Shown here in pieces: positions 1,396 to 20,040 of a DNA stretch of 20,710 nt. This DNA comes from a virus. The number at the start of each line of letters is the position of its first letter. Positions within the stretch are counted from its first letter, which is position 1. The translations under genes were made by a program, and so were the position numbers. Location: the IMG/VR virus record IMGVR_UViG_3300047324_000134, positions 1 to 20,710 of that record. The stretch is one strand, 5' to 3'. Under the pieces are notes generated by a model. It saw only the letters and a list, made by a program, of their open reading frames with translations. It was not told where the DNA came from and ran no database searches.

Positions 1396-1435
1396 AGGCC
1401 GGGTGCGGATTACTTCAACCTTAAAGCTTACTCCC

Positions 1436-2241: not shown

Positions 2242-2310
2242 ATCGAACCCTTTATATAGGCGGGGCCCGGCGCGGGCACGGCTCGATTCGCCATGGCTGC
2301 AAGGAAAGCG

Positions 2311-2316
2311 AAGGAG
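2311..2316 (+). promoter_or_regulatory. Strong Shine-Dalgarno site (AAGGAG)
   Basis: AAGGAG lies seven bases before the ATG at 2324. It selects that start over an in-frame ATG at 2195 that would overlap the endolysin gene. It is one of the few clear ribosome-binding sites in the window. Confidence 0.7.
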
Positions 2317-2323
2317 CACTGCA

Positions 2324-2776: not shown

Positions 2777-2779
2777 CTT

Positions 2780-3031
2780 ATGCGCGCCACTAACATCCGC
2801 CGAACTGTTCTCGACATTCTCGAGCGGGCGCAACCTTACGCGCTCTCCGAGTCGCAACTCGCGGTCGAGCTGAACGGCGCGGTGCGTCCGCCGGCTGGAA
2901 GAGCTGAGTTTGATGAGGAAATCCTGTTCCTCCAGACGCGCGGCTATATCGCCACCATCCCCGATCCGCTCGATGACCACCTGGTCAAATGGGCAATCAC
3001 AGAAGCGGGCAGGACCATGCTTCGCCAATAG
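2780..3031 (+). CDS. Small winged-helix-like phage protein (Mu gp26 position)
   Basis: The 83-aa protein begins three bases after the previous stop. Its pattern is a helix (IRRTVLDILERAQ), a second helix with SESQLAVELN, then a recognition-like helix (AEFDEEILFLQTRGYIATIPDPL) and a terminal strand-helix (VKWAITEAGRTMLRQ). That resembles a winged-helix domain of the type seen in small genes just upstream of Mu-like terminases. Its role in packaging or regulation is unknown. The start has no Shine-Dalgarno sequence and sits in the context GACTTATG. Confidence 0.6.
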   Translation: MRATNIRRTVLDILERAQPYALSESQLAVELNGAVRPPAGRAEFDEEILFLQTRGYIATIPDPLDDHLVKWAITEAGRTMLRQ

Positions 3032-3058
3032 CTCGCCGAAATCCTGTCGCTCACTTTC

Positions 3059-3640
3059 ATGGCCACTAACCGCAAGATCCGCATGGACTCACATCTAAGC
3101 CAGTTGACTACTGAGCAACAGGATGAAGTGCTCGCGCATTGCGAGGGGATATCGATCGAGGAGGGAGTTTCCTGGTTGAATGCCCGATTCGGCGTCACGC
3201 TGAGCAAACCCGCCCTGAGCCGATGGCTGGGAAGGCGCCGAGTTGAGAGCTCCGTCGCCTCCAGGCTCGAGGAGATTCGCCAGGCGCGCGATCAGGCCAT
3301 GCTTATCGGGAAGGTCGTCGGCACGGCCACCGATATTACCGAGGCCAACATCGTACTCATCGCGCAAGCGGTGTTCGATGAATTGCTGAAAGCTCCTGAA
3401 GAGCGCGATGTGGCCAAGCTGGCGAAGTACATGTCCCTCGGCATCAAGGTCAAGGACCAGAACCTCAAGGCCCGCGCGGGCGACCTCGCGTTCGAACGGC
3501 TTCACTTTGACCAGGCAAGGAAGGCCCTCGCGTTCGCTTCCCGGCTCCAGCGGATAAACGAAAGCGGTGTGGATGAGCGCGCCAAGGTCGAGGAGGCGAT
3601 GGTGCTCCTCTTTGGCAAGCCGGTAACCGTGGAGACCTGA
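3059..3640 (+). CDS. Small terminase subunit, DUF3486/Mu gp27-like
   Basis: The 193-aa protein starts with an HTH-like part (about residues 15-60: TTEQQDEVLAHCEGISIEEG, then LSKPALSRWLGRR). That matches the DUF3486 pattern in which a DNA-binding helix ends with a Ser-x-x-x-Leu-x-Arg-Trp/Tyr motif. A long helical region follows (65-190) with clusters of Lys/Glu/Arg, as expected for oligomerisation and contact with the large subunit. The length is close to that of Mu gp27. The next gene is the large terminase, five bases downstream. The protein should recognise the packaging site and feed phage DNA to the motor. No Shine-Dalgarno sequence is visible. Confidence 0.8.
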   Translation: MATNRKIRMDSHLSQLTTEQQDEVLAHCEGISIEEGVSWLNARFGVTLSKPALSRWLGRRRVESSVASRLEEIRQARDQAMLIGKVVGTATDITEANIVLIAQAVFDELLKAPEERDVAKLAKYMSLGIKVKDQNLKARAGDLAFERLHFDQARKALAFASRLQRINESGVDERAKVEEAMVLLFGKPVTVET

Positions 3641-3644
3641 TTTT

Positions 3645-5150
3645 ATGATGCTCGATCCTTTCCATGTCCCCAGCATGACGGCGGATCAGGTCGCCTCCCA
3701 GGAGGCCGCACTGATCCACTTCCGGCAATATCAGTTGCCTATCTTCTGGTCGGCGCGCGGCCTGCTCCTGCTCCACTGGAGCCGTCAGATTGGCAAGTCA
3801 TTCACGCTTGCCGCGTGGGCGGCGCACCGGGTGGGGACAAATCCCGGGCGCCTGGTCACCGTGCTGAGTAACTCAAAGTCGAATGGAGTCGAGTTCATCC
3901 ATAAGTGCGCGGAGGTTTGCGCGCTCATGCGTCTCGCCTTCGAGCGGGTCGACCTTTCCACTGGCGAGAAGATCGAGAACATGCGCATGGAAATCCGGGT
4001 CACGGTGTCCGGCAAGGCGGGACGGATCATCGTTCTCGCGGCGAATCCCCGCACGGCACGCGGCTTCTCCGGCGACCTGATCCTCGATGAATTCGCCTTC
4101 CACGAGGACAGCGCCGCCATCTGGGACGCCGCGGAACCGATCATCTCAAGCAACCCCGATTACCTTTGCAGAATCGCGAGCACCGGCAATGGGCGGTTCA
4201 ATATGTTCTATAGGATGGCAAACGAATCCTCCCCCTATGCCATCTCCCGCATCCGCCGGAGCGAGGCGTGGCGGATGGGGGTGAAGATATACGACCCCGC
4301 GACCCGCCAGGAGATCACGCCGGAGCAGGCCCGCGCCGCCGCGCTGGACAAGGCCAGCTATGACCAGAACTACGAGTGCGCCTTTAACGATGAGAATATG
4401 GCGTTGCTTACAAACGCACTTATTTCGGCGTGCGAGTATGAGGGGGAGGGGGAGTCGAGCGGAGGCCGGTCGGGAGATTGGCGTTCCCGGGAATGTTTCA
4501 TTTGCTCGCAAGATTGGAGTTATGAGTGCATCGAGTTTCTCCGCGCTTGCAAAGGTCCGCTCGGCATCGGGCTGGATGTAGGCCGCACGCGGGACATCAC
4601 GGTTATCACCATTGGGGAAAGAATCGGTGGCATCCTCTTAACCCGGGCGATCCTGCGCATTGCTTCCATGCGCCTGCCGCAGCAGCTCGACCGGCTCCGG
4701 CCGATCCTGGAAATGGCAAACTTCGGCAGGCTCAGCGGAGACGCCACCGGCCTGGGGCTCGGCCTCGTTGAGTTTGCGCAGGAGTTATGCGGGCCCTACC
4801 GGGCGGAGGCCGTGCAATTCGCCGGTCGCGAGAAGCGCACCATTCGCGGCATCCAGCAGGGCGACTCCGCATTGGTAACCGAACTAATGGCTCTCGACTT
4901 GCTCGAAGTGTTTGAGAACAGGGCCATCCGCGTGCCGTGCGAGATGACTCTGCGCGACAGCCTCCGCAAGCCCGAGCGCATTACCACGGCGGCGGGGGTC
5001 CGTATCGCGGCGACGCGCGATGAATCGGGCCATGCGGACGAATTCTGGAGCATGGCACTTATGGTCCGGGCGCTCAAAGGCGCCAGGGCGACACCATTCG
5101 CGTACGAAGCCGCGGAGGAAGTGGCGACTGCGAAATTCGGCGGGCTATAG
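3645..5150 (+). CDS. Terminase large subunit (Mu gp28-like ATPase/nuclease)
   Basis: The 501-aa packaging motor is clear from its motifs. The Walker A variant is SRQIGKS (46-52), Walker B is LILDE (145-149), and a coupling-type STGNG lies at 179-183. The C-terminal RNase H-fold nuclease carries acidic residues in GLDVGRTRD (D311), GDATGLG (D366) and HADEFWS (D465). It hydrolyses ATP to pump DNA into the prohead and cuts the DNA when the head is full. Between ATPase and nuclease (about 263-302) there is a Ser/Gly/acidic linker followed by a Cys cluster (C284, C287, C295, C302) that I do not associate with the family. The start is ATGATG, with GGAG about ten bases upstream. Confidence 0.95.
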   Translation: MMLDPFHVPSMTADQVASQEAALIHFRQYQLPIFWSARGLLLLHWSRQIGKSFTLAAWAAHRVGTNPGRLVTVLSNSKSNGVEFIHKCAEVCALMRLAFERVDLSTGEKIENMRMEIRVTVSGKAGRIIVLAANPRTARGFSGDLILDEFAFHEDSAAIWDAAEPIISSNPDYLCRIASTGNGRFNMFYRMANESSPYAISRIRRSEAWRMGVKIYDPATRQEITPEQARAAALDKASYDQNYECAFNDENMALLTNALISACEYEGEGESSGGRSGDWRSRECFICSQDWSYECIEFLRACKGPLGIGLDVGRTRDITVITIGERIGGILLTRAILRIASMRLPQQLDRLRPILEMANFGRLSGDATGLGLGLVEFAQELCGPYRAEAVQFAGREKRTIRGIQQGDSALVTELMALDLLEVFENRAIRVPCEMTLRDSLRKPERITTAAGVRIAATRDESGHADEFWSMALMVRALKGARATPFAYEAAEEVATAKFGGL

Positions 5151-5187
5151 CCCATCTTTCGCACACTGAACTGACTTACACCCATAC

Positions 5188-6567
5188 TTGAACGTGAACC
5201 CCGAAACCCGACCCTCCCGCGCGAACGGCAGCCCTGCGGGGCTCCCCGCCACACGGCGCGCTCCCAAGACGGAAACCATGGTGAGCGCCGATGTCGTGCA
5301 ACTCGCGCTTCGGTCCCGCTTCAATCCCCTGCGCGGCCTTACCCCGCAGCTTTTATCCGTCTATCTCGATAACTTCCTTCTTGGCTTCGTGGCCTACGCC
5401 GCCCTCGTGTGGGATCAGATAGAAAAGCGCGACGACGTGATCAGAAACGTGGCGAGCAAGCGCAAGAAAGCTGTCGCCAAGTACAAGCGCAAGTCCTTCC
5501 AGCGCGATCAGACCCCGGAGGCCGCGGCTCACGCGCAGGCGCTCGATGATTTCTACGAGAACATGACGGTAGTCAATGCGCTGGACCAGAACGAGACCGG
5601 CGGTTTTCCTCTCCTGGTCCGCCAGATGATGGACGCGGTGGGCAAATACTATGCAGTGCATGAAATCGTCTGGCAGCCCGGGTGCGCCGGAGGTTCGCCG
5701 GGGCAGGCCGGGCGGGATGACATACTTACGGCGGAACTCCGATTCGTGCCGCTGTGGTTTTTTGAGAATCGGTCGGGACGCCTCCAATTTCTGAAGCTGC
5801 CGCTGGGCGGCGCGAATGGCGAGCCGCTGGAGCCGGGCGGATGGATGATCACCAAGGGCGACGGAATCATGGAGGCCTGCTCGATAGCCTACATGTTCAA
5901 AAACATGCCGCTGAAGGATTGGGTGAGTTACAGCGATAAGTATGGCACTCCCGGCGTGCTGGGACAAACCAATGCCGCGAAGGGAAGCGAAGCAGGCGAG
6001 GCGCTCAAGGCGGCGGTCGCAAGCTTTGGTCAGAACTGGTCCGGCGTGGTGTATGGCGCGGATGGCTCGATCAAGGATCCCATTTCGCTGATCACTGCGC
6101 GGGGCGAAGGCACGCTCCCTTTCCCGCCGCTGGTCGAGCGCATGGACCGCGCCCTGGCCTCGCTGTGGCGCGGCAGCGATCTTTCGACCATTTCCGCGGA
6201 TAACAAGGGAGCGAGCGTCCAGCAGGACGAAAGCGACATCCTCCTCGAAGACGACGCGGCGATGATCAGCGAGACGCTGCAGCTCTATATAGACCGATGG
6301 GTCATCTGGCAAAAGTTTGGCGCCAGACCTTTGGCTTACTCACGCATTGTGGTGCCGGAGTCGAATAACGTGGCCCTCGATCTCCAGATAGATGAGTTAC
6401 TCCTCAAAGCCGGCGCGCGCCTCGGGGAGCGCGAGCGCCTCGAGTACTACGGAAGGCCGCTCATCCGCGAGGACGATCTGCCTCTCCACAATCCCGTGGC
6501 CATTGTGGAGCGGGTTCAGGATATGACTCAAAACCAGACTGTCCAGGCGGAGGACTTGTCCGCGTAA
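5188..6567 (+). CDS. Portal protein, DUF935/Mu gp29-like
   Basis: The protein follows the large terminase and shows the DUF935 pattern. An N-terminal segment (SRFNPLRGLTPQLLSVYLDN) comes first, then a region on non-spent sites with basic residues (ASKRKKAVAKYKRKSF), and then the signature around DWVSYSDKYGTPGVLGQ with downstream VVYGADGSIKDP. The C-terminal part has LLLKAGARLGERERLEYYGRPLI (split: LLLKAGARLG and ERERLEYYGRPLI), as in other Mu portals. It should form the dodecameric ring through which DNA enters. From the TTG at 5188 it is 459 aa, slightly short for the family. The ATG at 5278 (429 aa) is an alternative start. Neither has a good ribosome site. Confidence 0.9.
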   Translation: MNVNPETRPSRANGSPAGLPATRRAPKTETMVSADVVQLALRSRFNPLRGLTPQLLSVYLDNFLLGFVAYAALVWDQIEKRDDVIRNVASKRKKAVAKYKRKSFQRDQTPEAAAHAQALDDFYENMTVVNALDQNETGGFPLLVRQMMDAVGKYYAVHEIVWQPGCAGGSPGQAGRDDILTAELRFVPLWFFENRSGRLQFLKLPLGGANGEPLEPGGWMITKGDGIMEACSIAYMFKNMPLKDWVSYSDKYGTPGVLGQTNAAKGSEAGEALKAAVASFGQNWSGVVYGADGSIKDPISLITARGEGTLPFPPLVERMDRALASLWRGSDLSTISADNKGASVQQDESDILLEDDAAMISETLQLYIDRWVIWQKFGARPLAYSRIVVPESNNVALDLQIDELLLKAGARLGERERLEYYGRPLIREDDLPLHNPVAIVERVQDMTQNQTVQAEDLSA

Positions 6568-8268: not shown

Positions 8269-8802
8269 ATGATCCATTCGATCATCGCCGTACCTGTATT
8301 GCTGCTCTTCCTCGCAGCGGCATGGACAGGCCTCAATAAAAGTCAACTCCATCGAGTCCTGACCGATTTGGCAAACTCGATCCTCGTCAACATCACGCCC
8401 AAGGGACGTGCGACCGCGGTTGCGGACATGGCGTTTACCCAGCGATACCTCATCGCGTGCCGTGGAGCGGAATATTACAGCATCGCCATCGCGGGACAGG
8501 GGAGCATCCCCTACGCCGTCGTCCCCGATATGACGCCCACGACCGACACGGATTTGAGTTACCCGCTCCCGGTGCACATCCTTGGTCTCAACGAGGATAC
8601 CGAACGCATGATCGCAAGCAGTCCCATCAATATCGATGACCTGCTCACGACGGATACCGGCGGGCTGGTGCGCACGGTGCCGCAGGCGCCCGGAACTTAC
8701 TGGATATTAGGCAAGGCAAAGACACAGGCCTTCGCAAATGGCGACCAGGTGGAAGTGATCCCCTGCTTCCCATACATGCGCAACGTGGCCCAGCCGGTCT
8801 AG
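8269..8802 (+). CDS. Capsid decoration/cement protein (DUF2190-like) with N-terminal hydrophobic segment
   Basis: Residues about 50-177 match capsid-cement proteins: a start resembling DAAxTxRYLL (VADMAFTQRYLIACRGAEY), then GQGSIPYAVVPD, HILGLNEDTERMIASSPINI, GTYWILGKAKTQA and QVEVIPCFPYM. Such proteins bind the outside of the capsid lattice. The annotated reading adds 53 residues before this domain. They include a membrane-like stretch (IIAVPVLLLFLAAAWTG, about 5-21), which is unusual for a virion shell protein. A start at Met54 (8428) would give the family's usual size of about 120 aa but would leave the hydrophobic stretch unexplained. The start overlaps the stop of a 26-codon ORF by ATGA. 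Confidence 0.75.
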   Translation: MIHSIIAVPVLLLFLAAAWTGLNKSQLHRVLTDLANSILVNITPKGRATAVADMAFTQRYLIACRGAEYYSIAIAGQGSIPYAVVPDMTPTTDTDLSYPLPVHILGLNEDTERMIASSPINIDDLLTTDTGGLVRTVPQAPGTYWILGKAKTQAFANGDQVEVIPCFPYMRNVAQPV

Positions 8803-8852
8803 GCCCGATCCGTCCCTTGATAGCCGCAAAACATTCAATCACCAGCAATCCA

Positions 8853-9209
8853 ATGAAACAAAAACTGACACACTCCGGTTTGATCGCTCTTGCGATGGCG
8901 CTCGCCGCCACCGTCCTCGGGTCCTACTTCCAGCAGGCGCAAGCCGGGCAGTATGACGTTACTTACGCCATCCGAATCTCCGGGACCGGGCCTCTGCTGA
9001 TGCCGTACCTGGGGACCTCCGGCTCATGGCAGACCGTGGCTACCACCAGCACCAATGGTTTTCTGCAGACGACCGGCAGCGGTCTCACGGTAAATCCCAG
9101 TCCCATCATTACCGGCACGGCCAACATCGCATCGCCGGCGCCCGGGGAGCTGGGCACTTCCGCCACCGGCCAGCTCCTCATCTGGACGGGATCGAACTGG
9201 GTTCACTAA
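8853..9209 (+). CDS. 118-aa protein with canonical Sec signal peptide inside the head module
   Basis: The N-terminus is a textbook type I signal: basic n-region (K2, K4), hydrophobic core at about 9-23 (GLIALAMALAATVLG) and an AQA cleavage motif (29-31) before Gly32. The mature part of about 87 residues is rich in Gly, Ser and Thr and looks like beta-structure. It ends in GELGTSATGQLLIWTGSNWV, a phrase typical of phage fibre or stalk domains. It lies between the decoration and major capsid genes, so a head fibre is a fair guess. A cleavable export signal on such a protein is hard to fit with assembly in the cytoplasm. The ATG at 8853 starts exactly at the n-region; an in-frame ATG at 8817 is less suitable. 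Confidence 0.7.
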   Translation: MKQKLTHSGLIALAMALAATVLGSYFQQAQAGQYDVTYAIRISGTGPLLMPYLGTSGSWQTVATTSTNGFLQTTGSGLTVNPSPIITGTANIASPAPGELGTSATGQLLIWTGSNWVH

Positions 9210-9242
9210 ACCGCCACACCTACTAACCAAGACAAAGCTAAC

Positions 9243-10331
9243 ATGAAAAAAGCAACTATCGCGGAAACCGCGCCGGTCATGTCCTTAAAGGACTACCGCA
9301 AGCATCATTCAAAGGCCGTCGAGCGGCTGGCGAAAATCGAAAACGAGCCGGTGGCGCTTATCGCCAATGAAGGCGCCCCGATCCGTCCGGGAGACGTTTA
9401 TCTTGCGAACGAATCCGTCTTCACGCAGCAGTTCTTCGATGAACCGCTCACCAATTACGCCGCGGGCTGGCGCGATCCGAATAACATCGAGGAAACGCTC
9501 GAATTCTTCGCTCCCAGCGTCCCGGTACCCCGGCGATTCACTTACAAATCGTGGACTAATATCGAAGAGTTCCTCTCGGAGGGCTCGTATGACGATCTTC
9601 GGGCAATTGGCGCCGAGTTTGCCACAGTTATCTACACCGGCTCGGAAATCCACGCCCGCACGGACAATCGAGGTCTCCGCATGCGCGTGGATATGGATGA
9701 GGTCGCGGATCCCAACAGCGCGCTGGCGGGCGGAATCCCCGCCTTCCAGGCTCGCATCGTCGAGAAGCTGAAGCGGCGCATCCTGCGCAACTCCCTGCGG
9801 CGCGCCATCGCCATGTTATCCGCGGGCGCCGTCATCACCGCCAAGACCTGGAACGGCGGCGCCGGCCAGGACCCGGACAACGACGTGCTGCAGCAGCTGG
9901 TCTCCGCGGCCACGCAATCGGGAATTCGTCCGAACCGCGTCGCCTGGGGCGACACCGCGTGGTCGAAGCGCGTGCTGACCCATCGGGCGCAGAACGACGC
10001 CGGGGGCTACGCGAGCGCGGGCCTCAATCCTGAAGAGGTCGGCATGTTCCTGATCGCCCAGCCTTACGTCAGCCGCGAGCGTTTCTCCGCCGCCGGCGCG
10101 GGGCTGGCGGAAGTCGTCGGCAATCTCGTCTTCATGTTTTACGCCATGGCGGGCCAGGACACCGAAGACCCTTCGAACATCAAGCGCTTCTATTCCATGA
10201 CCGATAGCGGCGGCCCCTGGAGGGTCTATGTCCAGCAGGTCACCAGCAAGCTGGTAGATATTACCGTGGAACACTACGAACTGATCAAGGTTACGAGTCT
10301 CCTCGGGATCAATCAGTTCACGATTAGCTAA
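9243..10331 (+). CDS. Major capsid protein (Mu gpT position)
   Basis: The 362-aa protein occupies the major-head position after protease-scaffold and decoration genes. Features that fit a major capsid protein are an N-terminal helical region with KAVERLAKIENEPV, the extended segment FFAPSVPVPRRFTYKSW, the DNRGLRMRVDMDEVADPNSA region, a helix pair KLKRRILRNSLRRAIAMLSA, and a C-terminal domain ending in DITVEHYELIKVTSLL. It should form the icosahedral shell. I cannot assign a Pfam family with certainty. Residues 39-46 (LIANEGAP) repeat a motif found at residues 36-43 of the protease-scaffold (LLANEGRP). No Shine-Dalgarno sequence is visible. Confidence 0.8.
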   Translation: MKKATIAETAPVMSLKDYRKHHSKAVERLAKIENEPVALIANEGAPIRPGDVYLANESVFTQQFFDEPLTNYAAGWRDPNNIEETLEFFAPSVPVPRRFTYKSWTNIEEFLSEGSYDDLRAIGAEFATVIYTGSEIHARTDNRGLRMRVDMDEVADPNSALAGGIPAFQARIVEKLKRRILRNSLRRAIAMLSAGAVITAKTWNGGAGQDPDNDVLQQLVSAATQSGIRPNRVAWGDTAWSKRVLTHRAQNDAGGYASAGLNPEEVGMFLIAQPYVSRERFSAAGAGLAEVVGNLVFMFYAMAGQDTEDPSNIKRFYSMTDSGGPWRVYVQQVTSKLVDITVEHYELIKVTSLLGINQFTIS

Positions 10332-10346
10332 ACATCTGGGTTGGGC

Positions 10347-10387
10347 GCCGCCGCCCCGTGGTCTGGGAATTCCACGCGGGCGGCGGC
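10347..10387 (+). terminator. GC-rich stem-loop after the major capsid gene (attenuator-like)
   Basis: The left arm 10347-10361 (GCCGCCGCCCCGTGG) pairs with the right arm 10372-10387 (CCACGCGGGCGGCGGC), with one bulged G and a 10-base loop. The stem starts 15 bases after the capsid stop codon. There is no following U-tract, so a classical intrinsic terminator is unlikely. It could act as an attenuator or an mRNA 3'-end stabiliser that lets capsid transcripts exceed those of the tail genes. Confidence 0.5.
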
Positions 10388-10456
10388 CAAGACTCTGGAG
10401 AAGTATGAATGATGAAGCAGCCAATCGAATTTGGCGGCTCGGCCGCTCCGCTGTCC

Positions 10457-10468
10457 TCAGCCTTTAAG
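10457..10468 (+). repeat. Partial host-type repeat, AGGCTAAA/TCAGCCTTTA family
   Basis: TCAGCCTTTAAG is the same element in the same orientation as TTCAGCCTTTAG at 11735-11746. It lies just before the gene starting at 10478 and gives that gene an A/T-rich leader (AAGTTTTGACTT) without a Shine-Dalgarno site. Only this short arm is present. Confidence 0.4.
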
Positions 10469-10477
10469 TTTTGACTT

Positions 10478-10930
10478 ATGTCCAACTGGACTTCCATTAC
10501 CATTGATACATTGAAAGCGGCCGGGCATGGCGCCATCGTTGACGCGGCGCAGACTGCCGGCATCGGCGGCGTTGACCCAGTCGCCGAGTCTATTGCGGAC
10601 GCCGTCTCGCGGGTGCGGGCCGCCTGCTCGACCGGCAATCAACTCGACGCGGACACCACCAAGGTACCGAATAGTGTCAAGGGCCTTGCCATCCGCATCG
10701 CGCTCTTCGCGCTCATGGAGCGGATCAATTACCCGCTGAGCGAGGACCAGCGCGATACGCGGCGCAATGATAACAGCACGCTGCTTCGAATCAATGATGA
10801 CAGATTGAAGTTCGAGCGTCCGGACACCGCCGCGGGCGGCGCGGAAATGCAGCCAGGGACAGACATGGATACCGTGACGCGGACAAATCGGCGCCAATAT
10901 ACCCGCAGAGGAATGGAAGGTTTGCTATGA
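10478..10930 (+). CDS. Head-tail connector, DUF1320/Mu gp36-like
   Basis: The 150-aa protein has the DUF1320 layout. An Ala-rich N-terminus comes first, followed by a helix with an Arg/Ala pattern (VAESIADAVSRVRAACSTG), a region that leads into VKGLAIRIALFALMERIN, and then DTRRNDNSTLLRINDDRLKF. In Mu-like phages this gene directly follows the major capsid gene, as here, and the product joins the portal vertex to the tail. Its stop overlaps the next start (ATGA), as expected for neck genes made together. The start context is GACTTATG with no Shine-Dalgarno sequence. Confidence 0.75.
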   Translation: MSNWTSITIDTLKAAGHGAIVDAAQTAGIGGVDPVAESIADAVSRVRAACSTGNQLDADTTKVPNSVKGLAIRIALFALMERINYPLSEDQRDTRRNDNSTLLRINDDRLKFERPDTAAGGAEMQPGTDMDTVTRTNRRQYTRRGMEGLL

Positions 10931-11652
10931 GCCTTCAGCGTTTCCAGCTCGACCTCGCGGCGCGCCTCGAGGCGGCGGCATTCTTCGCCGATATTCCGGT
11001 CTTCGTCCTCCGCCCTCGAGCGGCGTTCACCGCCGCGCAAATCCAGGACAACATCAACTCGGCCCTTGGCGCGCTTACCGCTCAGAACGGAAAGGCGGGC
11101 CTTTGCGCGACGGTGCTCATGCCGCTTCTGGAAACAGAGAAACAGGAATTGCCCGGACCTTACCTCCGCCTCAAATGCACGGTGAGAGTACAGGAGAATG
11201 TGATGGTGAACATGGGCGCGAATGGAACACAGATCGCCTGCGAGGATGCCGCAATCGCTACCGCGCAGACGTTGCACCTTTGGACGCCTGGCGGGACTGC
11301 GGGGATTCTGCGGGCCGGGACGGAAACCATCACGCCGAATCCCTCTTTTGGAGGGAAAGTTACTTATGATGTGCAGGTCGAGAGCGAGCTGGACCTGGCG
11401 TGCCTGGTCAAAACGGCGCAGCCGTTCATCAGCGAGGCGGGCGGCAACATCTCGATCGCCTGCGCGGACGGGGCGGCCTCGATCTATTACACGGTCGACG
11501 GATCGATGCCGTGGGCAGGGAATGGGACTTACCCGAGCACCGCGATACTTTACGCCGGGCCCTTCGCGGCGCCCGCAGCGGGGAGATTGATCCGTGCGGC
11601 GGCCTATAACCCCACGCTGCTGGGAAGCGATGTGGATTGGCTGCAGCTTTGA
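10927..11652 (+). CDS. Tail-completion/neck protein with C-terminal chitobiase-C-like domain
   Basis: Residues 1-160 look like a tail-terminator or completion protein (Mu gp37/38 position). An N-terminal helix (DLAARLEAAAFFADIPVFVL) is followed by a two-layer part with YLRLKCTVRVQENVMVN and a helix DAAIATAQTLHLW, closed by a strand (KVTYDVQVESELDL). Residues about 165-228 form a second domain, ISIACADGAASIYYTVDGSM then ILYAGPFAA and IRAAAYNP. This matches the DGSxP...LYxGPF...AxAY pattern of CHB_HEX_C (chitobiase C-terminal, Ig-like) domains, which often bind or present carbohydrate surfaces. The fusion would place an Ig-like knob at the head-tail junction. GGAAGG precedes the start, one of few good ribosome sites. 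Confidence 0.7.
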   Translation: MSLQRFQLDLAARLEAAAFFADIPVFVLRPRAAFTAAQIQDNINSALGALTAQNGKAGLCATVLMPLLETEKQELPGPYLRLKCTVRVQENVMVNMGANGTQIACEDAAIATAQTLHLWTPGGTAGILRAGTETITPNPSFGGKVTYDVQVESELDLACLVKTAQPFISEAGGNISIACADGAASIYYTVDGSMPWAGNGTYPSTAILYAGPFAAPAAGRLIRAAAYNPTLLGSDVDWLQL

Positions 11653-11653
11653 A

Positions 11654-11746
11654 AGGCTAAAGGCTGAAGGCTGAAATTTTAGATATGAGACAGACCCGAA
11701 AAGGCAGGACAAAACGGCGAAGCGCAGACGCGACTTCAGCCTTTAG
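11654..11746. repeat. Intergenic inverted repeat, AGGCTRA family
   Basis: Directly after the stop codon come three tandem heptamers, AGGCTAA, AGGCTGA and AGGCTGA (11654-11674). TTCAGCCTTTAG at 11735-11746 is the exact reverse complement of 11657-11668, giving a perfect 12-bp inverted repeat around a 66-base spacer. I recall AGGCTAAAGGCTGA-type repeats as common intergenic sequences in Verrucomicrobiota chromosomes; that is memory, not a search. Related copies lie at 10457, 13323 and 17311. Confidence 0.75.
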
Positions 11747-11766
11747 AAATTAGCATTTTCTTCACC

Positions 11767-12708
11767 GTGAGCATACCTCTTCGCATTCATGGGCCGGCAA
11801 TCATCGCCTTCAATGGGGTGAGCTATTACTTCAAGGAGGGACTCAAAGGGTCGATCAAGAGGAGCCGCGTGAAGATCGAGGTGGACGCCTTTGGACAGAT
11901 CGCGGAAGCTGCCAGGGATTGCGTTGTCGAATTCACGGGAACCCCGGCAGGCGCCATTCGCGCCGCGGATTTGGCGGCGCAAATGCCTTATCTTCCGAAC
12001 ACTGTCGGCGCGAGCATCTTCGGTACAAGCGATCTGCCGCTCGTTGTGCACACGATCAATGACGGCCAAACCATTACCTGGCAGCGGGGGGCGATCAGCA
12101 AGTACGCCCCCATCCTGCTCAGCGCTACGCAGGGGACGATTTACAAGGGAGACATGACCTTTTCGTGCCTGATGTCGAGTAACTTCGCGCCCAATGCGGT
12201 CTCCGCGTGGAAGAGTATTGCCTCTTCCGCATTCTCAGACGCCACGTTCGACTCGTCCACCGTGCGGATGGCGCAATATGTCGCCGCATGGGGCGGCGGA
12301 TCGCCTTACAACGCGATGATTTCGCAGGACGGCTTCCTGCTTACTCCGGCGATTGAGACTGAGAATATCTCCGTCGATAATTATGGGATCATCGACATGG
12401 CGCTCAAATCGGTCACTGGGAGAGCCCAGTTCAAACCGGCGAACCTGACCGAGGCTCAGATCGATGCGCTGATCGAGTTGCAGGGAAGCAATGCGATGCT
12501 CCCAGGACAGGCGATCGGTGACGGCGGATATGACCTTGTAATCAGCAGCAGTCTGCTGAAGGCGACCCTCAAGATGGCAGGCGCTGTGGATTACGGGGTG
12601 ATGTACGCAACCGGCAAACTTCGCGCCGGCGAGGTGGTCTTCGGCGCGGCGACTACTTTCACCGCGGGGGTCCCAAACGCGATCCTCACATTCAGCATCC
12701 CCAACTAG
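11767..12708 (+). CDS. Probable major tail tube protein
   Basis: The 313-aa product begins with GTG at 11767. No upstream in-frame ATG exists, and the sequence SIPLRIHGPAIIAFNGVSYY reads as a natural N-terminus. It is followed by strand-rich sequence with VKIEVDAFGQ, LAAQMPYLPNTVGASIFGTS and PLVVHTINDGQTITWQRGAI. This fits tail-tube proteins of non-contractile phages and comes directly after the tail-completion gene. The rest (IETENISVDNYGIIDMALKS, then AQFKPANLTEAQID) also suggests a beta-barrel with an inserted helix. No sheath gene accompanies it. I am fairly sure it is a tail structural protein, less sure it is the tube. Confidence 0.6.
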   Translation: MSIPLRIHGPAIIAFNGVSYYFKEGLKGSIKRSRVKIEVDAFGQIAEAARDCVVEFTGTPAGAIRAADLAAQMPYLPNTVGASIFGTSDLPLVVHTINDGQTITWQRGAISKYAPILLSATQGTIYKGDMTFSCLMSSNFAPNAVSAWKSIASSAFSDATFDSSTVRMAQYVAAWGGGSPYNAMISQDGFLLTPAIETENISVDNYGIIDMALKSVTGRAQFKPANLTEAQIDALIELQGSNAMLPGQAIGDGGYDLVISSSLLKATLKMAGAVDYGVMYATGKLRAGEVVFGAATTFTAGVPNAILTFSIPN

Positions 12709-12719
12709 AGAAAATGAAC

Positions 12720-12810
12720 GGTAGCCGAGGGCAAAAGACCCGTAACAAGCCAGCGCAGGGCAACGCCCTGGGTAAACGGGCAGAACATGGCAAGCGCCAA
12801 AGGCGCATGA
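12720..12810. repeat. Host-type intergenic repeat with two hairpins
   Basis: Two compact palindromes lie in the 174-base gap. CAGGGC-AAC-GCCCTG at 12756-12770 is a perfect 6-bp stem, and GCGCC-AAA-GGCGC at 12794-12806 a perfect 5-bp stem. The phrase GCAGGGCAACGCCCTGGGTA is a motif I recall from dispersed repeats of Planctomycetes and Verrucomicrobiota. It is unrelated in sequence to the AGGCTRA family. It could act as a transcription or processing signal between tail genes or be a passenger. The rest of the gap (12811-12882) shows nothing clear. Confidence 0.65.
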
Positions 12811-12882
12811 CAATAGATGCGGCCGCGGCTTTATTCAGATTGGTCTGATACCTTCCTTGTCTGTCGTTCCGCTCTTATCCGT

Positions 12883-13320
12883 ATGCTTGTATCAATAGGC
12901 ACATTCAATCTTTGCGACGGCACCCGGCTCAATGGCGTGGGGCTTACGAATCTGCGGTTCAAGGTGGATCGGAAGATTCAGGTAGCGGAGGTATTCCGCG
13001 CGCCGGCGGTGCTTGCGTTTGACAGGGGCAACCGGCAGACGACCGCCAGCTTCGAAATTAGCCGCACCTTCCCTGACCTCGGGTCCGCGGATGCGTTTAC
13101 CCTGACGCACGAGGAGAGTATCCCTACCTCCCCGGCGCTGGTGACCTTCATTGCCGTTCTGACCAATGGACAGAAGGTGCTCAGGTATCTGCCGAGCGGG
13201 ACAGTATCGAGCGTCGAGCTGGCTTCGCAGATCGGCCTCACAACCCGGCATCAGTACTCAATCGTTGGAGGTATCGTTACCTCGGTGGCGCCAAACCTCT
13301 GGGGAGCGGCGCAGATATGA
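12883..13320 (+). CDS. Small tail structural protein, function unknown
   Basis: The preferred start is the ATG at 12883. An in-frame ATG at 12817 would add 22 residues coded by sequence next to the repeat. The 145-aa product is strand-rich: MLVSIGTFNLCDGTRLNGVG, then LRFKVDRKIQVAEVFRAPAV, then ASFEISRTFPDLGSADAFTL, then LVTFIAVLTNGQKVLRYLPSG. This composition is typical of small tail or distal-tail proteins, and its place between tube and adaptor supports that. No Shine-Dalgarno sequence is visible. Confidence 0.6.
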   Translation: MLVSIGTFNLCDGTRLNGVGLTNLRFKVDRKIQVAEVFRAPAVLAFDRGNRQTTASFEISRTFPDLGSADAFTLTHEESIPTSPALVTFIAVLTNGQKVLRYLPSGTVSSVELASQIGLTTRHQYSIVGGIVTSVAPNLWGAAQI

Positions 13321-13322
13321 GC

Positions 13323-13416
13323 AAGGCTAAAAGTGAAGGCTGAAGGTGGAAAAGCGACTAGGCAACAAGCACAACCACTCGCCGCGAAGCGACGACCATT
13401 TCTTCATTCCTTAGCC
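13323..13416. repeat. Degenerate intergenic inverted repeat, AGGCTRA family
   Basis: AAGGCTAA (13323-13330) and a second unit AAGGCTGAAGG (13336-13346) follow the previous stop by a few bases. TTAGCC at 13411-13416 is the reverse complement of GGCTAA. The arrangement (tandem units just after a stop, then the inverse arm before the next start) copies the element at 11654-11746. The spacer differs in sequence. Confidence 0.6.
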
Positions 13417-13441
13417 TGTATAATTCAGCGTTCCTAAACTT

Positions 13442-14314
13442 ATGGCTACATTACAAACTCAGATCATCAGCCTGGTGGCAAACCTGTCAAGCAAGGCGCC
13501 GGTCATGGATATGGCCACTTCGCAGGAGCCGCAGGCGTGGTGGGCATGCGACCTCCAAATCCGTGCAAGCGCATTTTCGGACGCCGGGTTGACGATCCTA
13601 AGTGTGGCGAACCTCACCTCGGCGACGCTCTATCTGAAGGACCCGAGCAACCTGGATGGATCGCCACTCTTCAGCCAGACGCTGACGGAGTTTGATAATA
13701 CAACGACGGCAGCGACCTGGAATGCGGGGACAAACCAGCATATGCTCTTTACATTGCCTGCGGACGACCTTTCGTTTGGAGGGTTGACCAACGGGCAGCG
13801 TTTGCTGGATTTGGTGATCGTGGGGGTGACGACGGGAGGGAAGACCGCGGTTTTGTGTGTGGGGACGCTGGCGCTGATCGATAGCGGCGCGGATAGCCCT
13901 TCGTCGAACCCGGTGAACGCGATTACCGTCACGCAGGCTGCGGCGATGGTGGCGGCGGCGTTCTGGACGCAGGGGGTAACCAATCTTGGCGCAGCGGGGA
14001 CCACTCTGTTAGCAAATGGGCAGACGTGGGGCACGGGAAGGCTGCCATTCAGCCTGGCGGCCGGCGCGGGGGCCTATGTGGTCAATATCACGCTGAGCGA
14101 TGCCAATGTCCTCGCGGGGGCGCTGGTGCGGATACCGATTGATTTCCCGGCTTCGGCAAATCCGACGGTCAATATCTATGACGGCTCGACCGCGGGTAAT
14201 TTACTCGAAGGGCCGCTGACTAATCCGAATCCGGGGCAGGCTGCGAGCTTTCTGTTCACGGCCGGGTTTGACGGGACCAACTTTCACAAGGAATCGGGGA
14301 TGTGGGTGGGCTGA
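13442..14314 (+). CDS. Baseplate/fibre adaptor protein, BppU-like
   Basis: The 290-aa product has an N-terminal strand domain (about 15-150) resembling BppU-type adaptors: AWWACDLQIRASAFSDAGLT, then LTSATLYLKDPSNLDGSPLF and LLDLVIVGVTTGGKTAVLCV. A linker follows (160-205), then a C-terminal domain (209-285) containing NITLSDANVLAGALVRIPID and FPASANPTVNIYDGSTAGNL. The C-terminal domain is clearly related to residues 70-148 of the next protein, the 983-aa fibre (shared PAS-x-NP-x-x-N-x-x-D-x-x-TAG-x-LL and a final FHK). The shared domain may be the joint that attaches fibre to tail. Codon use here shifts toward GGG for Gly compared with the head genes. Confidence 0.6.
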   Translation: MATLQTQIISLVANLSSKAPVMDMATSQEPQAWWACDLQIRASAFSDAGLTILSVANLTSATLYLKDPSNLDGSPLFSQTLTEFDNTTTAATWNAGTNQHMLFTLPADDLSFGGLTNGQRLLDLVIVGVTTGGKTAVLCVGTLALIDSGADSPSSNPVNAITVTQAAAMVAAAFWTQGVTNLGAAGTTLLANGQTWGTGRLPFSLAAGAGAYVVNITLSDANVLAGALVRIPIDFPASANPTVNIYDGSTAGNLLEGPLTNPNPGQAASFLFTAGFDGTNFHKESGMWVG

Positions 14315-14323
14315 TATTTTTTT

Positions 14324-14430
14324 AACCGCAGAGAACGCAGAGAACGCAAAACTTTATGAACTTACGGACCCAACTTTATCGCATCTCCACGACCCTTCTC
14401 CTCTTTGCGCTCTTTGCGCTCTTTGCGGTT
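14324..14430. repeat. Long inverted repeat around the fibre start codon (CGCAGAGAA family)
   Basis: The left arm 14324-14350 is made of ACGCAGAGA-type units (CGCAGAGAACGCAGAGAACG inside it). The right arm 14404-14430 is made of TTTGCGCTC-type units. Reverse-complemented, the right arm matches the left at 23 of 27 positions, and two of the four mismatches would be G-U pairs in RNA. The 53-base loop holds the ATG at 14356. I recall this element as a very common intergenic repeat in Verrucomicrobiota and Planctomycetes genomes. Here the right arm is translated as part of the fibre's N-terminus. Confidence 0.85.
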
Positions 14431-17307
14431 GGTCTCCGCGCCGATCCTCCGGCGGCTACGTTTTACCAGTTCAATGGTGGACAGTCCGCGGCGGTGAGCA
14501 GCGGGACTTCGGTGACGCTATCGCGGCTCGGCTGCGTGTCATCTTACAATTTGACGCTCGGGAGCGGGACTGCGGCTTATACGGATAACTTGTCACTCTC
14601 GGACTCTGGGATTCATGCAGGCGATGTCTATCTGATTGCGGTTAGTTACCCGGCCTCTACCAACCCCAGCCTCAATGTGTTTGACTCGGGCACTGCCGGG
14701 ACGCTGCTGGATAGCTCGACGGGAACCGCGATTGCTGGGAGCACGACGCTGGAGTTTGTGAATATTACAGGAACGGCCTGGGTCGCCTTTCACAAGGGGG
14801 CGGTGCTGACAAAGAACCTCGCCGGGGGTGTCCAGGCGGCGCTCGGGACGCCGCTCAATTCTTCGGGGGGATTTGTGACGGGGAGCGGGCTGGCGAGCGG
14901 GACGGCGGCGAGCGCATTGTCGAGCGGGAGCGCCGCTGTGAGCGGGAGTGCGACCGTCGCGGGATCGGCGCTCACGAGCGGGAGCGCGGCCTTGGCTGGA
15001 TCGGCGGTGACAAGCGCTACGGCGGCTTACAGCGGGACCGCCGGATCGCTGGGTTCGGGCGCCTTCGGCAATCTGGCGATTTATTCGAATCAGCTTTCCG
15101 GGATTCATCAGAACTCGAATCTCTCGACGGGCGGGGGAACGGATGACCGGGCGACGCTGCAGGCGGCGCTGAACGCGATCAATGCGGCGGGAGGCGGCAC
15201 GCTGATCATGACGGGGCCGTGCCTGCTCTCGGGCTCGCTGGCGCTCTGGAGCAATGAGCGGATCGAGGGATTGAATGAAGGGAGCTGCGGGTTTTACCTG
15301 AGCGGCTCCTCGAATACTCCGGTGCTGACTAACATGCATCGCAGTTACCTCCAGGCCAGCGACAGCAATATCTGCGCGCAGAATCTGACGATCAACGGCG
15401 ACGGGCAGATTGGGGGGGGACTATTTGGCCAGGCGATGACGGACTCCGGCGGCAACTGGGTGCACGCGATAGATTTTAACGGGGTGAATAATATCGAGGT
15501 GTCGCGGTGCCAGGTGCTGAACTCTCGCAATTACGCGATCAACCTGACTTCGTGCAACTGGGTGAAGGTCGAGCATATCTATGCATGGTTCCCCTTCCCG
15601 TCCGCCACCCATGAGGATGCGGTGCACCTGGATGCGCCTTACAACGATGTCTTTATCAATGATATCTGGAGTAATGGGCTGGATGATGCGGTCGCGATTA
15701 ATGGGGATGAGGATTACGGACTTAGCCAGAGTTACTCGACGCCTCCGCTCATCGATACGAGCGGGACGAATAGCTCGCGGGTGCGGGTGAGTAACATCAC
15801 GGCGGCGGTGGGTTGCAACTCGGCGGTGCGGATCATTTCCGGGGTGGGCCGGGCGGACGATATCGTGGTCTCGAATGTGCACGGGGTGGTGAGGTCGTTC
15901 GGGGTGCTGATCGATGACGCCGGGGCGGGATACGCGGGGAATTTCGGCAGCATCACGCTGAGCGACATCGATCTCGGCTTTACTCCAAATACGTCGAATG
16001 GACCTGCGCCATTTACCGGCGGCCCGTATTTGATCGGCGTTCTGGACCAGGTGGATAGCCTTACGCTGCGCAATATCGGCGCGCAAAATTATGACGGGGC
16101 TTACGGGCCGTGGCTTTGCCTGGGCTCGGGGGCGCATATCCGGTCGCTCTCGATCTCGGGGCTGTGGCACGATGAGAGTTTTTCCCTCATGGCGAGCGGG
16201 ACGGGGCGGATCATGGCGCAGTACGCATGGGTGCATGAGATGCACATCGGGCCGCTGCAATGGGATAAGCCGGAATCGAGCGGATCGGCGTCCGGCGGCA
16301 TCCTGATGTCTTCGACGGCCAGCCAGATCGATGACCTGGAGTTTAACGGGGTGGAGACCAATAACGGCGCGGGCATCCTGTTGCAGACGAGCGGGACGAT
16401 TGGGGCGATCTCGGTGAACGGGTTGCGGGACCGGTACGCGGGGGCGCCGTCGATCACGCTGAGCGATACGACGACGAATGTGACGGTGGGGAGCGCGGAG
16501 GTGGGCCAGGCGCTGATCTCTGGCACGCCCGCGAGCATCACGGGGACGGGTAACGTGATTACGGATGGGACGGGAAGTTATCCTGCAGGCCGGCATGTCT
16601 ACGCGTGCATCTATCACCTTAACGAGAACAGTAACGTCGAGACGGCGGCATTCGACAGCAGCGGGAATTTTGCGCAGCCGCTCCTGCTCGGGAGCAGCAC
16701 GGGGACGAATATCTACCGGGTGACTGGGCAGATCTTCGGGAATTGCTATAACTTCCCCGGAAGCACGTCGTCGTGGCTGACGGGTAGAAGCCCGATCTCG
16801 CTGCCGCAGCAGTTTTGGCTATCGTATTGGGTGAAGTATTCAGGGAACGCCACGGGGAGTTATGGCGGGATTTGCTGCGAGTGCACGCACAACGGGATGA
16901 ATAACGGCGGCTTCCAGGCGATTCTTACGCAAAGTGGGACGACTTATTATCCGACCGCCAATGTGTGTACGGCCAGCAGCGGAGCCGGTGGCGTGGTCAA
17001 GACCTCGGCGCATGCGATCGTGGCGGGGAGCTGGCATTTTATCGTGCAGGAGGAGGATGGGGTGAACGGCGTCGAGGGGATCAGCGTGGATGGGAACGCG
17101 ATGGAGACCGGGACCTTCACGCCGCCGATTTTGATGGATACGAAGGATAATTTTGCCGTCGGCAGCTCGAGCAATGACACGGGCGCGGCGACTTATCCGC
17201 TGAATGCCTATCTCTGCGAGCTGGTGTTTCATCCGGGGCTGCCGACGAGCGGGGACATCAGCGCGATCTGGAATAGCGGCACGGGGCTGCAAGCGCCGTA
17301 TCCGTAA
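14356..17307 (+). CDS. Tail fibre/depolymerase: signal peptide, adaptor domain, repeat stem, beta-helix, LamG-like C-terminus
   Basis: The 983-aa modular protein starts with a signal-like segment (R4, R9, core STTLLLFALFALFAVG 11-26, possible cut after LRA). Residues 35-150 are an adaptor domain shared with the upstream protein. Residues 177-234 are a Ser/Gly/Ala stem of near repeats (SGSAA, AGSALTSG). GGGTDDRATLQAALNAINAA (259-278) opens a pectate-lyase-3-like right-handed beta-helix that runs to about 740, typical of phage polysaccharide depolymerases. Residues about 741-983 resemble a LamG/concanavalin fold (QFWLSYWVKYSG, SWHFIVQEEDGV, LCELVFHPG). It should bind and perhaps cut cell-surface glycans. 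A CCECTH cluster occurs in the C-terminal domain. Catalytic residues cannot be assigned by eye. Confidence 0.75.
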   Translation: MNLRTQLYRISTTLLLFALFALFAVGLRADPPAATFYQFNGGQSAAVSSGTSVTLSRLGCVSSYNLTLGSGTAAYTDNLSLSDSGIHAGDVYLIAVSYPASTNPSLNVFDSGTAGTLLDSSTGTAIAGSTTLEFVNITGTAWVAFHKGAVLTKNLAGGVQAALGTPLNSSGGFVTGSGLASGTAASALSSGSAAVSGSATVAGSALTSGSAALAGSAVTSATAAYSGTAGSLGSGAFGNLAIYSNQLSGIHQNSNLSTGGGTDDRATLQAALNAINAAGGGTLIMTGPCLLSGSLALWSNERIEGLNEGSCGFYLSGSSNTPVLTNMHRSYLQASDSNICAQNLTINGDGQIGGGLFGQAMTDSGGNWVHAIDFNGVNNIEVSRCQVLNSRNYAINLTSCNWVKVEHIYAWFPFPSATHEDAVHLDAPYNDVFINDIWSNGLDDAVAINGDEDYGLSQSYSTPPLIDTSGTNSSRVRVSNITAAVGCNSAVRIISGVGRADDIVVSNVHGVVRSFGVLIDDAGAGYAGNFGSITLSDIDLGFTPNTSNGPAPFTGGPYLIGVLDQVDSLTLRNIGAQNYDGAYGPWLCLGSGAHIRSLSISGLWHDESFSLMASGTGRIMAQYAWVHEMHIGPLQWDKPESSGSASGGILMSSTASQIDDLEFNGVETNNGAGILLQTSGTIGAISVNGLRDRYAGAPSITLSDTTTNVTVGSAEVGQALISGTPASITGTGNVITDGTGSYPAGRHVYACIYHLNENSNVETAAFDSSGNFAQPLLLGSSTGTNIYRVTGQIFGNCYNFPGSTSSWLTGRSPISLPQQFWLSYWVKYSGNATGSYGGICCECTHNGMNNGGFQAILTQSGTTYYPTANVCTASSGAGGVVKTSAHAIVAGSWHFIVQEEDGVNGVEGISVDGNAMETGTFTPPILMDTKDNFAVGSSSNDTGAATYPLNAYLCELVFHPGLPTSGDISAIWNSGTGLQAPYP

Positions 17308-17658: not shown

Positions 17659-20040
17659 ATGAGCTGGTACCTGCGGATCGGCGGCGGCGCTCCGGTGCTT
17701 TTCTCGGCCATCGGCGCGAGCAAGCTCAAGCGGACGGTATCCAGTCAGAAGGAGTCGGTGTTCGCCTTTTCAGTCGATGGGGCTTCAGCGGATTGGAATC
17801 CGCTGGCGGCGGAGGGGACGATCTGCACCGTCTACGCGGACGCTACTCCTTACTTTGCGGGACGGCTGTACCGGATCCCTCGCAAGGGGCGCGGATCCAC
17901 GGAGAGCTTCCGCGACGATTCGCGGCACTGGTCGCTGAACTCCAAGCAGCTTCAGGTTACCCGTCCGGCGGAGAGCATCGACTACGAGATTCGGGACCCA
18001 TGGCTGGACCTCAAGCAGTTCGTCTTTCAACAGCAGTGGAATGTGATCACCGGCACGGATGAAAGCGGGCACCCGACGAAGACGGCGGAGTACCGCAGCG
18101 AATGCATCCTGGGGATGGACCTGAGCGGCAACCCGCTAAGCAACGGGGAGCAGATCACGATGATCATCGAGTGGGCTGCGAGCTGCGGGGCCTATTGCCA
18201 GCCGGGGGATATCGCGGTGTCTTCGCCGATCCCGTTTGATGAGATCACGGACATGAGCTGCGCGGAGTGCATCAAGCGGATGCTGCGCTGGAGCCCGGAC
18301 GCGGTGGCGTGGTTCGATTACTCGGTGACGCCGCCTGCCTTTAACGTGACGCCGAGGGCGGATTGCGAGGCGGTGTTTCTGGAATTTTCCGGAGGGCCTG
18401 AGAGTGTCGAAATCCACGCGCTGCCGTTTCTGGTGCCCCCGAGCGTGGTGATCCGGTACATCCAGATCACTGCGAGCAATGCGGGATCGGCGCAGGTGCA
18501 GGTGATACCGGATGTGTTCCCAGGGGGAGCGACGGGGAGGGAGTATGGGGCGATGGTGATGACCTGCAGGCTGGCGGAGGGGCAATCGACTTACCAGAAG
18601 CAGAAGATCAAGGCGCAAATCTTCCCGATTGCCAATAGCGGTACGGGGGAAGGCCCGGACGGAGGAAATATCTCCGATGGCGGCCCGAGCAATGATCCGC
18701 TGATCCAGTGGTGGCAGCGGAAGGTAACCTGGCTGAAGAATTTCGGGATCAGCTCGACGAGCTCGACGCCTGCGCCCACGGCTGCGGACATCGGCAACCA
18801 GCTCATCATTACCAATATGTGGGGGACGTTCGACGTGGGCGAAGGCGACGACGACGGAACGGGCACCGTGGCGCTTATAACGTTCGATGACGACGGCAAC
18901 GAGACGCTCAACACGGACTATGCCAATGAGCTGCTCCAGGGCCAGATCGCAAGCTGGATGACCCAGAATCAGGCGAAGACGACCTGGACGGCGCTGGTGA
19001 GCTATAGTTACCCCAGCGACGCGGGGTCGTACACGGCGCAGGATAATGACGCGATTGCGATCTTTGGCGGTCCGGTTGCGGCGCCCGATGGGAGCAGCAA
19101 CAGCGTGCCGATCAAGGTGACGGCTCGCGCGACGGCGACCAATGCGACCACCAGCACCTACTCGAGCCTGACCGGTTACACCGCGCCGGAGAGTCCTCCG
19201 AACGGGCTGGCGGAGTATCTGTACGAGAGCCTGGCTCAATTGCACTACGAGGGCCAATACACGACCGTGGGCCAGGAGGTCTCCATCTGGCGGCTGGGGC
19301 TGGTGCTGAACCTGTACGGCGGCCGCGAGGAATGGGGGAGCATGAACGCGCTGCTCCAGGAGATAACCGACGATCTGGACGCGGGGAAGACGACGCTGAA
19401 GTTCGGGCCACCGGGGCATCTGACCCTCCAGGACCTCATGGAGCTGATCCGCGCGAATCGTACGCGCGTGGTGAGCAGCCACATCAAGGAGCGGACAGAC
19501 GGGACGAGCGGGGATTGCTCGGAGGTGGATGGGGCGCTCCAGGGCTCCTCGGATGGGAGCGATCACCCGCCTTCCGCGCCGGGCATTGTCGATTTCCAGG
19601 GCTGCGACAGCAGCACCGCGGATGATGGGCCGCAGGTGGGCATCTATGGCGGGACCGTGAGCGACCTGACGCCGGGAGGAACTGTCTGGACGCCCACGGG
19701 GCTGGTGCTGGGGCAGTACACGGTGTTCGAGGTCTCGGCCGGAGACACGGTCGCGTACCTCATCATCACTTACGATATCTCGACCGGGCCGCCTCCGACG
19801 CTCAATATCACGAGCATCACGGTGCAGACCGATGACAGCGTCCCGGCCAATACCTCGGGGACGCTCTATGTGCAGCTGTTCAACTTCACGGTCACGGCCG
19901 CGAGCGGCAGCACGCCTGCGAGCGTGCAGATCACCGGCGATTTCATCGGCGACCAGCAATTCTTCGCGTGGCAGCGCTGGTTCTACCTGGGGCAGTTTGA
20001 AGCGATCAGCGGAAGCGCGGTCACGGTGCTTGGGGATTAG
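17659..20040 (+). CDS. Tail tip/hub protein (siphovirus baseplate hub-like)
   Basis: The 793-aa product begins SWYLRIGGGAPVLFSAIGAS and has an N-terminal barrel region (about 1-110, LYRIPRKGRGSTESFRDDSR). This is followed by a Cys-containing segment DMSCAECIKRMLRWSPDAVA, as in hub or tail-tip proteins that carry a late-control-D-type fold. Further on, TLKFGPPGHLTLQDLMELIR and ANRTRV match the GP-x-x-HL-x-x-x-DL-x-x-LLR signature that I associate with tail-hub proteins. The last 140 residues form an extra strand-rich domain (GIVDFQGCDSS ... FFAWQRWFYLGQF), possibly a receptor-facing Ig-like part. It should close the tail tip and hold fibres. The start has a purine-rich AGGGCGGG region about ten bases upstream. 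Confidence 0.7.
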   Translation: MSWYLRIGGGAPVLFSAIGASKLKRTVSSQKESVFAFSVDGASADWNPLAAEGTICTVYADATPYFAGRLYRIPRKGRGSTESFRDDSRHWSLNSKQLQVTRPAESIDYEIRDPWLDLKQFVFQQQWNVITGTDESGHPTKTAEYRSECILGMDLSGNPLSNGEQITMIIEWAASCGAYCQPGDIAVSSPIPFDEITDMSCAECIKRMLRWSPDAVAWFDYSVTPPAFNVTPRADCEAVFLEFSGGPESVEIHALPFLVPPSVVIRYIQITASNAGSAQVQVIPDVFPGGATGREYGAMVMTCRLAEGQSTYQKQKIKAQIFPIANSGTGEGPDGGNISDGGPSNDPLIQWWQRKVTWLKNFGISSTSSTPAPTAADIGNQLIITNMWGTFDVGEGDDDGTGTVALITFDDDGNETLNTDYANELLQGQIASWMTQNQAKTTWTALVSYSYPSDAGSYTAQDNDAIAIFGGPVAAPDGSSNSVPIKVTARATATNATTSTYSSLTGYTAPESPPNGLAEYLYESLAQLHYEGQYTTVGQEVSIWRLGLVLNLYGGREEWGSMNALLQEITDDLDAGKTTLKFGPPGHLTLQDLMELIRANRTRVVSSHIKERTDGTSGDCSEVDGALQGSSDGSDHPPSAPGIVDFQGCDSSTADDGPQVGIYGGTVSDLTPGGTVWTPTGLVLGQYTVFEVSAGDTVAYLIITYDISTGPPPTLNITSITVQTDDSVPANTSGTLYVQLFNFTVTAASGSTPASVQITGDFIGDQQFFAWQRWFYLGQFEAISGSAVTVLGD

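Follow-up and report, generated by a model that had tools for sequence, protein, structure and literature searches.

It is generally assumed that tailed phages synthesise their virion proteins, and put them together, in the cytoplasm. In the filamentous phages the virion coat proteins pIII and pVIII carry cleavable signal peptides and are assembled at the inner membrane, and among tailed phages the T4 prohead, which is built on the inner membrane, shows that head assembly can be associated with a membrane. The filamentous phages are, however, of an unrelated type that is extruded without lysis, and the membrane link of T4 concerns the portal/initiator rather than an anchored cement protein. 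In bacteriophage lambda, the signal-bearing Lom, an outer-membrane protein of lysogens, is encoded between the tail and fibre genes (PMC12309495), while a survey of phages with diversity-generating retroelements noted that phage variable proteins lack signal peptides and counted this in favour of a phage origin (PMC6199706). No described exported tail fibre or membrane-anchored decoration protein was found in the literature searched, which is not proof of their absence. Here we analyse three genes of a 20.7-kb virus record, IMGVR_UViG_3300047324_000134 (positions 1-20,710; the window), which encode a capsid cement (decoration) protein, a small head-cluster protein of 118 aa and a tail fibre-like protein, all with hydrophobic N-termini. 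On balance, we regard these N-termini as probable working targeting signals of two kinds in Mu-like phages of Verrucomicrobiota, which would imply membrane-tethered head decoration and periplasmic delivery of the fibre.

The window carries a Mu-like head module consisting of gp27-like, terminase, Portal_Mu, Mu-like protease (Mu-like_Pro), cement, major capsid protein and gp36-like genes. Upstream of it lie a repressor, a Pam3-type holin, a GH108 endolysin and a lipoprotein, and the standard lysis genes are present. Unlike the filamentous phages, the window phage is tailed and encodes a terminase, a portal protein and lysis functions, and it shares with Mu the gp27-like, terminase, portal, protease and gp36-like genes as well as a membrane protein at the position of the Mu gp25 releasin. 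To score N-termini across 30 related loci, we used as criterion an uncharged stretch of 13 residues with a mean Kyte-Doolittle (KD) hydropathy of >=1.9, starting by residue 25. This was found in 20 of 29 cement proteins as against 4 of 243 other conserved head/tail family members (Fisher p 9e-20). When the same criterion was applied to 56 Mu and lambda genes, it flagged only the signal-anchor-release (SAR) endolysin, spanins, releasin, Lom, holin and Rz, and no Mu head or tail gene. These two sets of controls ruled out chance hydrophobicity as an explanation. The major capsid protein (9243..10331; this and all features below lie on the + strand), a context gene assigned by a match to the phrog_1005 major head protein (E 1.2e-5), lacks a hydrophobic N-terminus in the window and in all 28 relatives (0/28).

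The N-termini fall into two groups by their charge. Of 24 signal-bearing proteins of the fibre and 118-aa types, 20 had more positive charge before the core and none had more after it, the reverse of the cement layout, where net positive charge was greater after the core in 16 of 20 proteins and before it in one. An earlier note on this window had singled out the three open reading frames and their N-termini at 8269, 8853 and 14356, and had described them as resembling export signals, which is odd for tailed phages. The N-termini recur in relatives, and the reading of them as targeting signals is supported across about 30 loci, so that the observation is more general than the single window allowed. 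The same note had grouped the three together as export-signal-like, a description that fits the 118-aa protein and the fibre, whose predicted signals are of the cleavable Sec type, and does not fit the cement protein, whose helix is a predicted anchor by its charge layout.

The cement protein (8269..8802, 177 aa) begins with MIHSIIAVPVLLLFLAAAWTGL. Its AlphaFold2 (AF2) model had a mean pLDDT (predicted local distance difference test) of 87.5, reaching 95-98 across most of the beta domain, and showed a helix at residues 2-20 followed by a low-confidence helix at 24-37. In Foldseek searches of the PDB, the cement domain matched with probability 1.0 the capsid/cement chains of Pam3, HFTV1, phi29 (the gp8.5 base), BB1, TW1 and Sf11; the T1 cement/decoration protein was also among the matches, and the search of BFVD returned DUF2190 proteins. 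The Pfam family concerned, PF09956 (Phage_cement_2/DUF2190), was not matched by the window protein itself, and 2 of 11 close relatives matched it, with a best E of 1.6e-4. As with the members of this family from Pam3, TW1, HFTV1 and phi29, which by Foldseek have the same beta fold, the window gene adjoins that of the major capsid protein. The structural models thus support the view that the 8269 product is a capsid cement fold behind a 20-residue hydrophobic helix.

Conservation, charge and the AF2 model together mark residues 1-22 (8269..8334) as an N-terminal hydrophobic helix and predicted N-out/C-in anchor, and K/R content and the model mark residues 23-37 (8335..8379) as a basic flank or linker helix. 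The hydrophobic helix was retained in 20 of 28 cement relatives, down to about 20-25% identity, with a core of 16-27 uncharged residues and a mean KD of 1.7-3.1; K/R residues followed within 15 residues of the core in all 20 anchored members. The dN/dS in the helix segment was 0.13 in comparison with the related locus L005. The annotated starts (MIH) align among relatives, and AAGGAG-type sites lie upstream of several of them (L003, L007, L008, L012 and L042). A start at Met54 was rejected as that residue is not conserved, and the counter-case raised in the earlier note, that homologues would begin at Met54 or downstream of the hydrophobic segment, mostly failed, a downstream start being found in 1 of 11 close homologues. 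A lipoprotein reading was likewise set aside, a lipobox-like VLAASC occurring in L003 only. By the positive-inside rule, the basic flank of a membrane segment stays in the cytoplasm, and the basic residues after the core thus place the N-terminus of the cement protein on the predicted outside and the cement domain inside. We therefore predict that the helix is a membrane anchor, by which the cement domain would be held to the cytoplasmic side of the inner membrane; as an N-out/C-in segment, it would probably leave the protein tethered and not exported.

The 118-aa small head-cluster protein (8853..9209), which has relatives in L005, L002, L012, L003 and L040, is predicted to be exported. Its putative signal peptide, recognised by its n/h/c layout and A-x-A-type site, comprises residues 1-31 (8853..8945), with the N-terminus MKQKLTHSGLIALAMALAATVLGSYFQQAQA|GQYD and cleavage predicted at AQA|GQYD. 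This layout and site are retained among relatives although the sequence differs, the cleavage-site residues being AQA, ARA, VRA or ARG. While the gene caller favoured 8895 as the start, 85% identity to the L005 protein from residue 1 favours 8853. The protein matched no Pfam family. In L042 this slot holds another small protein, whose signal ends AVHA|QTS, and in L070 and L071 small signal-bearing proteins are encoded directly after the major capsid protein.

The tail fibre/spike-like protein (14356..17307, 983 aa), located among tail genes, has a GH28-like and LamG-like C-terminus by Pfam matches below the curated cut-off, and its PHROGs matches were weak and to families of unknown function only. 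The N-terminal module is constant among relatives and the C-terminus varies, GDSL lipase or LamG domains appearing instead. Clade comparison delimits a predicted signal peptide at residues 1-29 (14356..14442; N-terminus MNLRTQLYRISTTLLLFALFALFAVGLRA|DPP), cleaved at LRA|DPP or, alternatively, at AVG|LRA. In the separate fibres of the close clade, the signal ended with [AG] before [DY]P[PS] in 9 of 9, and position -3 was L in 4 of the 9, the window among them. Against six relatives, the window fibre was 21-32% identical in the signal and 45-76% in the mature part, which indicates that the signal is kept as a function and not as a sequence. Like the 118-aa protein, the fibre combines a basic n-region, an apolar core and A or G where cleavage probably takes place, and these features support cleavable Sec-type signals on both, from which export and cleavage would follow. 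Lom also has a Sec-type signal and a gene adjoining tail fibre genes; in the window, in contrast, the fibre-like protein itself bears the signal, and Lom is not a fibre. Signals recur in the distant Verrucomicrobiota prophages L070, L071, L072 and L080, and signal-bearing fibre-like genes are also found in L014, L042, L070 and L080, of which the L080 protein matches the phrog_7389 tail fiber. The L072 prophage, on a 4.1-Mb contig, has about five genes in its tail-fibre region (1-6002) with signal-peptide-like N-termini.

The upstream tail protein (13442..14314) shares a module with the fibre, being 43% identical over 54 aa to fibre residues 66-119, and lacks a signal peptide; a hydrophobic N-terminus was seen in none of the 16 members of its family (0/16). 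The AF2 model of the fibre N-terminal module (mean pLDDT 65, no PDB match) was uninformative. A need for disulfides as the cause of fibre export was unsupported, the cysteine content of the fibres being uneven (0.15-2.1%).

The fibre start codon sits in the loop of an imperfect palindrome with 27-nt arms of 85% complementarity. The left arm of this dispersed repeat (14324..14350) lies upstream of the start, while the right arm (14404..14430) encodes LFALFALFAV, the core of the fibre signal. Similar arms lie over signal cores in L002 (12800) and L070 (about 4688). In L008 (14668-14812) a heptamer palindrome-like pair, (AAAAGTT)n / (CTTTTCA)n, encodes FSLFTFHFSL, and in L005 (about 10035-10070) a TTCAGCCTTTAG-type arm encodes the signal core. 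A second palindromic repeat family (AAAGGCTGAAGGCTGAA.../TTCAGCCTTTAG) is present in the window itself at 11652-11758, between two tail genes. At least three repeat families thus supply fibre signal cores through palindrome arms, as if repeats repeatedly furnished new signal peptides; this agrees with a signal in which any apolar sequence will do. Repetitive extragenic palindromes (REPs), known in Opitutus terrae, have also been reported to overlap the N-termini of open reading frames, with caution about mis-called starts (PMC3733652). The window repeat resembles these in being a short palindrome that overlaps an N-terminus, and differs in that its arm supplies a signal core which relatives keep by means of other sequences; it is not necessarily of the GTAG class. 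That the fibre signal arose solely through a REP accident was rejected because relatives without that repeat also have signals. Palindrome arms as general chromosomal donors of signals were also discounted, the exact arm pattern being rare (11 of 195 genomes) and the inspected copies looking intergenic and not at gene starts. In another prophage region, the signal core of a 200-aa lipoprotein gene of L073 (2445-2510), LLCVSLCALCVFSGC, also lies over a degenerate arm of the repeat family seen at the window fibre.

Under the favoured reading, the cement protein would insert N-out/C-in, its cement domain remaining at the cytoplasmic side of the inner membrane, and, more speculatively, heads would be decorated and perhaps matured at this face. 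Sec would export the fibre and the 118-aa protein, whose signals would be cleaved, and both would accumulate in the periplasm; when holin, endolysin and spanin open the envelope, they might, again more speculatively, join the particle or act beside it. As a whole, a two-compartment assembly, with heads coated at the membrane and virions completed by Sec-exported fibres and small protein at envelope opening, while the fibre signal evolves freely and is rebuilt from palindromic repeats, is put forward only tentatively. Several observations weigh against it. Eight of the 28 cement relatives, namely L002 and seven distant ones, are without the full helix, which is therefore not essential to the cement domain, and L002 indicates that the domain can manage alone. 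A signal-bearing fibre is missing from L007, whose 13442-family protein ends in a signal-less fibre-like extension. The targeting predictions themselves were made with a home-made rule of hydrophobicity and charge, and this sets the chief limit on what the sequences can show.

The main rival, and a strong one, accepts the signals as real and places the two exported proteins, fibre and 118-aa protein, outside the virion and in the envelope, where they could, for instance, block the phage receptor or surface glycans, or trim them back, in lysogens or towards the end of infection, as Lom-type genes in the tail region of lambda might. The position of Lom in lambda favours it, as do the enzymatic- or lectin-like fibre C-termini (GH28, GDSL lipase, LamG), the sharing of the fibre module by the signal-less 13442 protein and the fact that L007 manages without an exported fibre. 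The signal-bearing genes lie, however, within the late structural operon and adjoin tail genes, the C-termini vary as in receptor-binding proteins, with the L080 protein matching a tail-fibre family, and a small signal-bearing protein stands beside the major capsid protein in several lineages. We consider such an envelope role a serious contender, if a less probable one than targeting for assembly. We infer that the exported fibre may belong to the virion, a reading which the present data do not separate from that of an envelope protein. For the cement helix alone, a weaker rival reads the helix as a hydrophobic arm that is packed inside the capsid or inside the stalk of a trimer. Cement proteins do occupy the capsid surface, and several relatives have a short amphipathic MIxFIKxLFxARPVF stretch in place of the helix. 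The length and hydropathy of the uncharged core and its one-sided basic flank nevertheless have the look of a membrane segment, and the PF09956 proteins of Verrucomicrobiota begin at the domain (few cases were inspected), so that the window protein differs from the ordinary cement proteins of the phylum by its added helix and basic flank; we think a buried arm rather unlikely. It is very improbable that the N-termini are artefacts, arising from mis-assigned start codons or from a palindromic repeat that happens to read as hydrophobic. The window fibre core is indeed read from a repeat arm, and REPs over annotated N-termini can reflect mis-called starts, but fibres with unrelated N-terminal sequence also bear signals (L003, L010, L012, L013 and L014), and the cement starts are backed by Shine-Dalgarno-like sites, by their alignment and by purifying selection.

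The hosts of this phage group appear to be Verrucomicrobiota. Searches of viral contigs with the cement protein gave 13 related contigs, one match was found in a Spartobacteria metagenome-assembled genome, and the cement-family profile had matches in 16 of 388 Verrucomicrobiota genomes, several of them lying on multi-megabase contigs. The cement protein, 118-aa protein, fibre and major capsid protein of the window had no match among 50,697 INPHARED phage records, and the group appears to be without a cultured relative in that collection. Most of the relatives are viral contigs in which the fibres vary and a lysis cassette is present, and no pointer to a domesticated element such as a gene transfer agent was found among them, in an analysis that went no further into this question. 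If signal-cleaved fibres occur on virions, assembly in this lineage would use two compartments. Pipelines that read a signal peptide as marking a host gene would then miss fibres, and this phage group, unmatched in the records searched, would gain its first structural peculiarity. Should the exported fibres prove to belong to the envelope, they could represent a new class of receptor-module decoys.

The 20.7-kb contig contains no transposase and no obvious tape-measure gene; L004, L080 and L086 seem to carry a tape-measure gene after the fibre region, and the window contig may end before it. In the window clade, ACTT was present in the 10 bases before 24 of 175 gene starts, compared with 2.8% of all ATGs, an excess that intergenic base composition may partly explain, with clear Shine-Dalgarno sites equally few in this clade. 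The tail region of the window also encodes a 241-aa protein (10927-11652) with a C-terminal Fn3_assoc/CHB_HEX_C_1 domain. Downstream of the tail genes, L007 has a gene at 17873-18442 that was judged by eye to be heptosyltransferase-like, a possible surface-glycan modifier.

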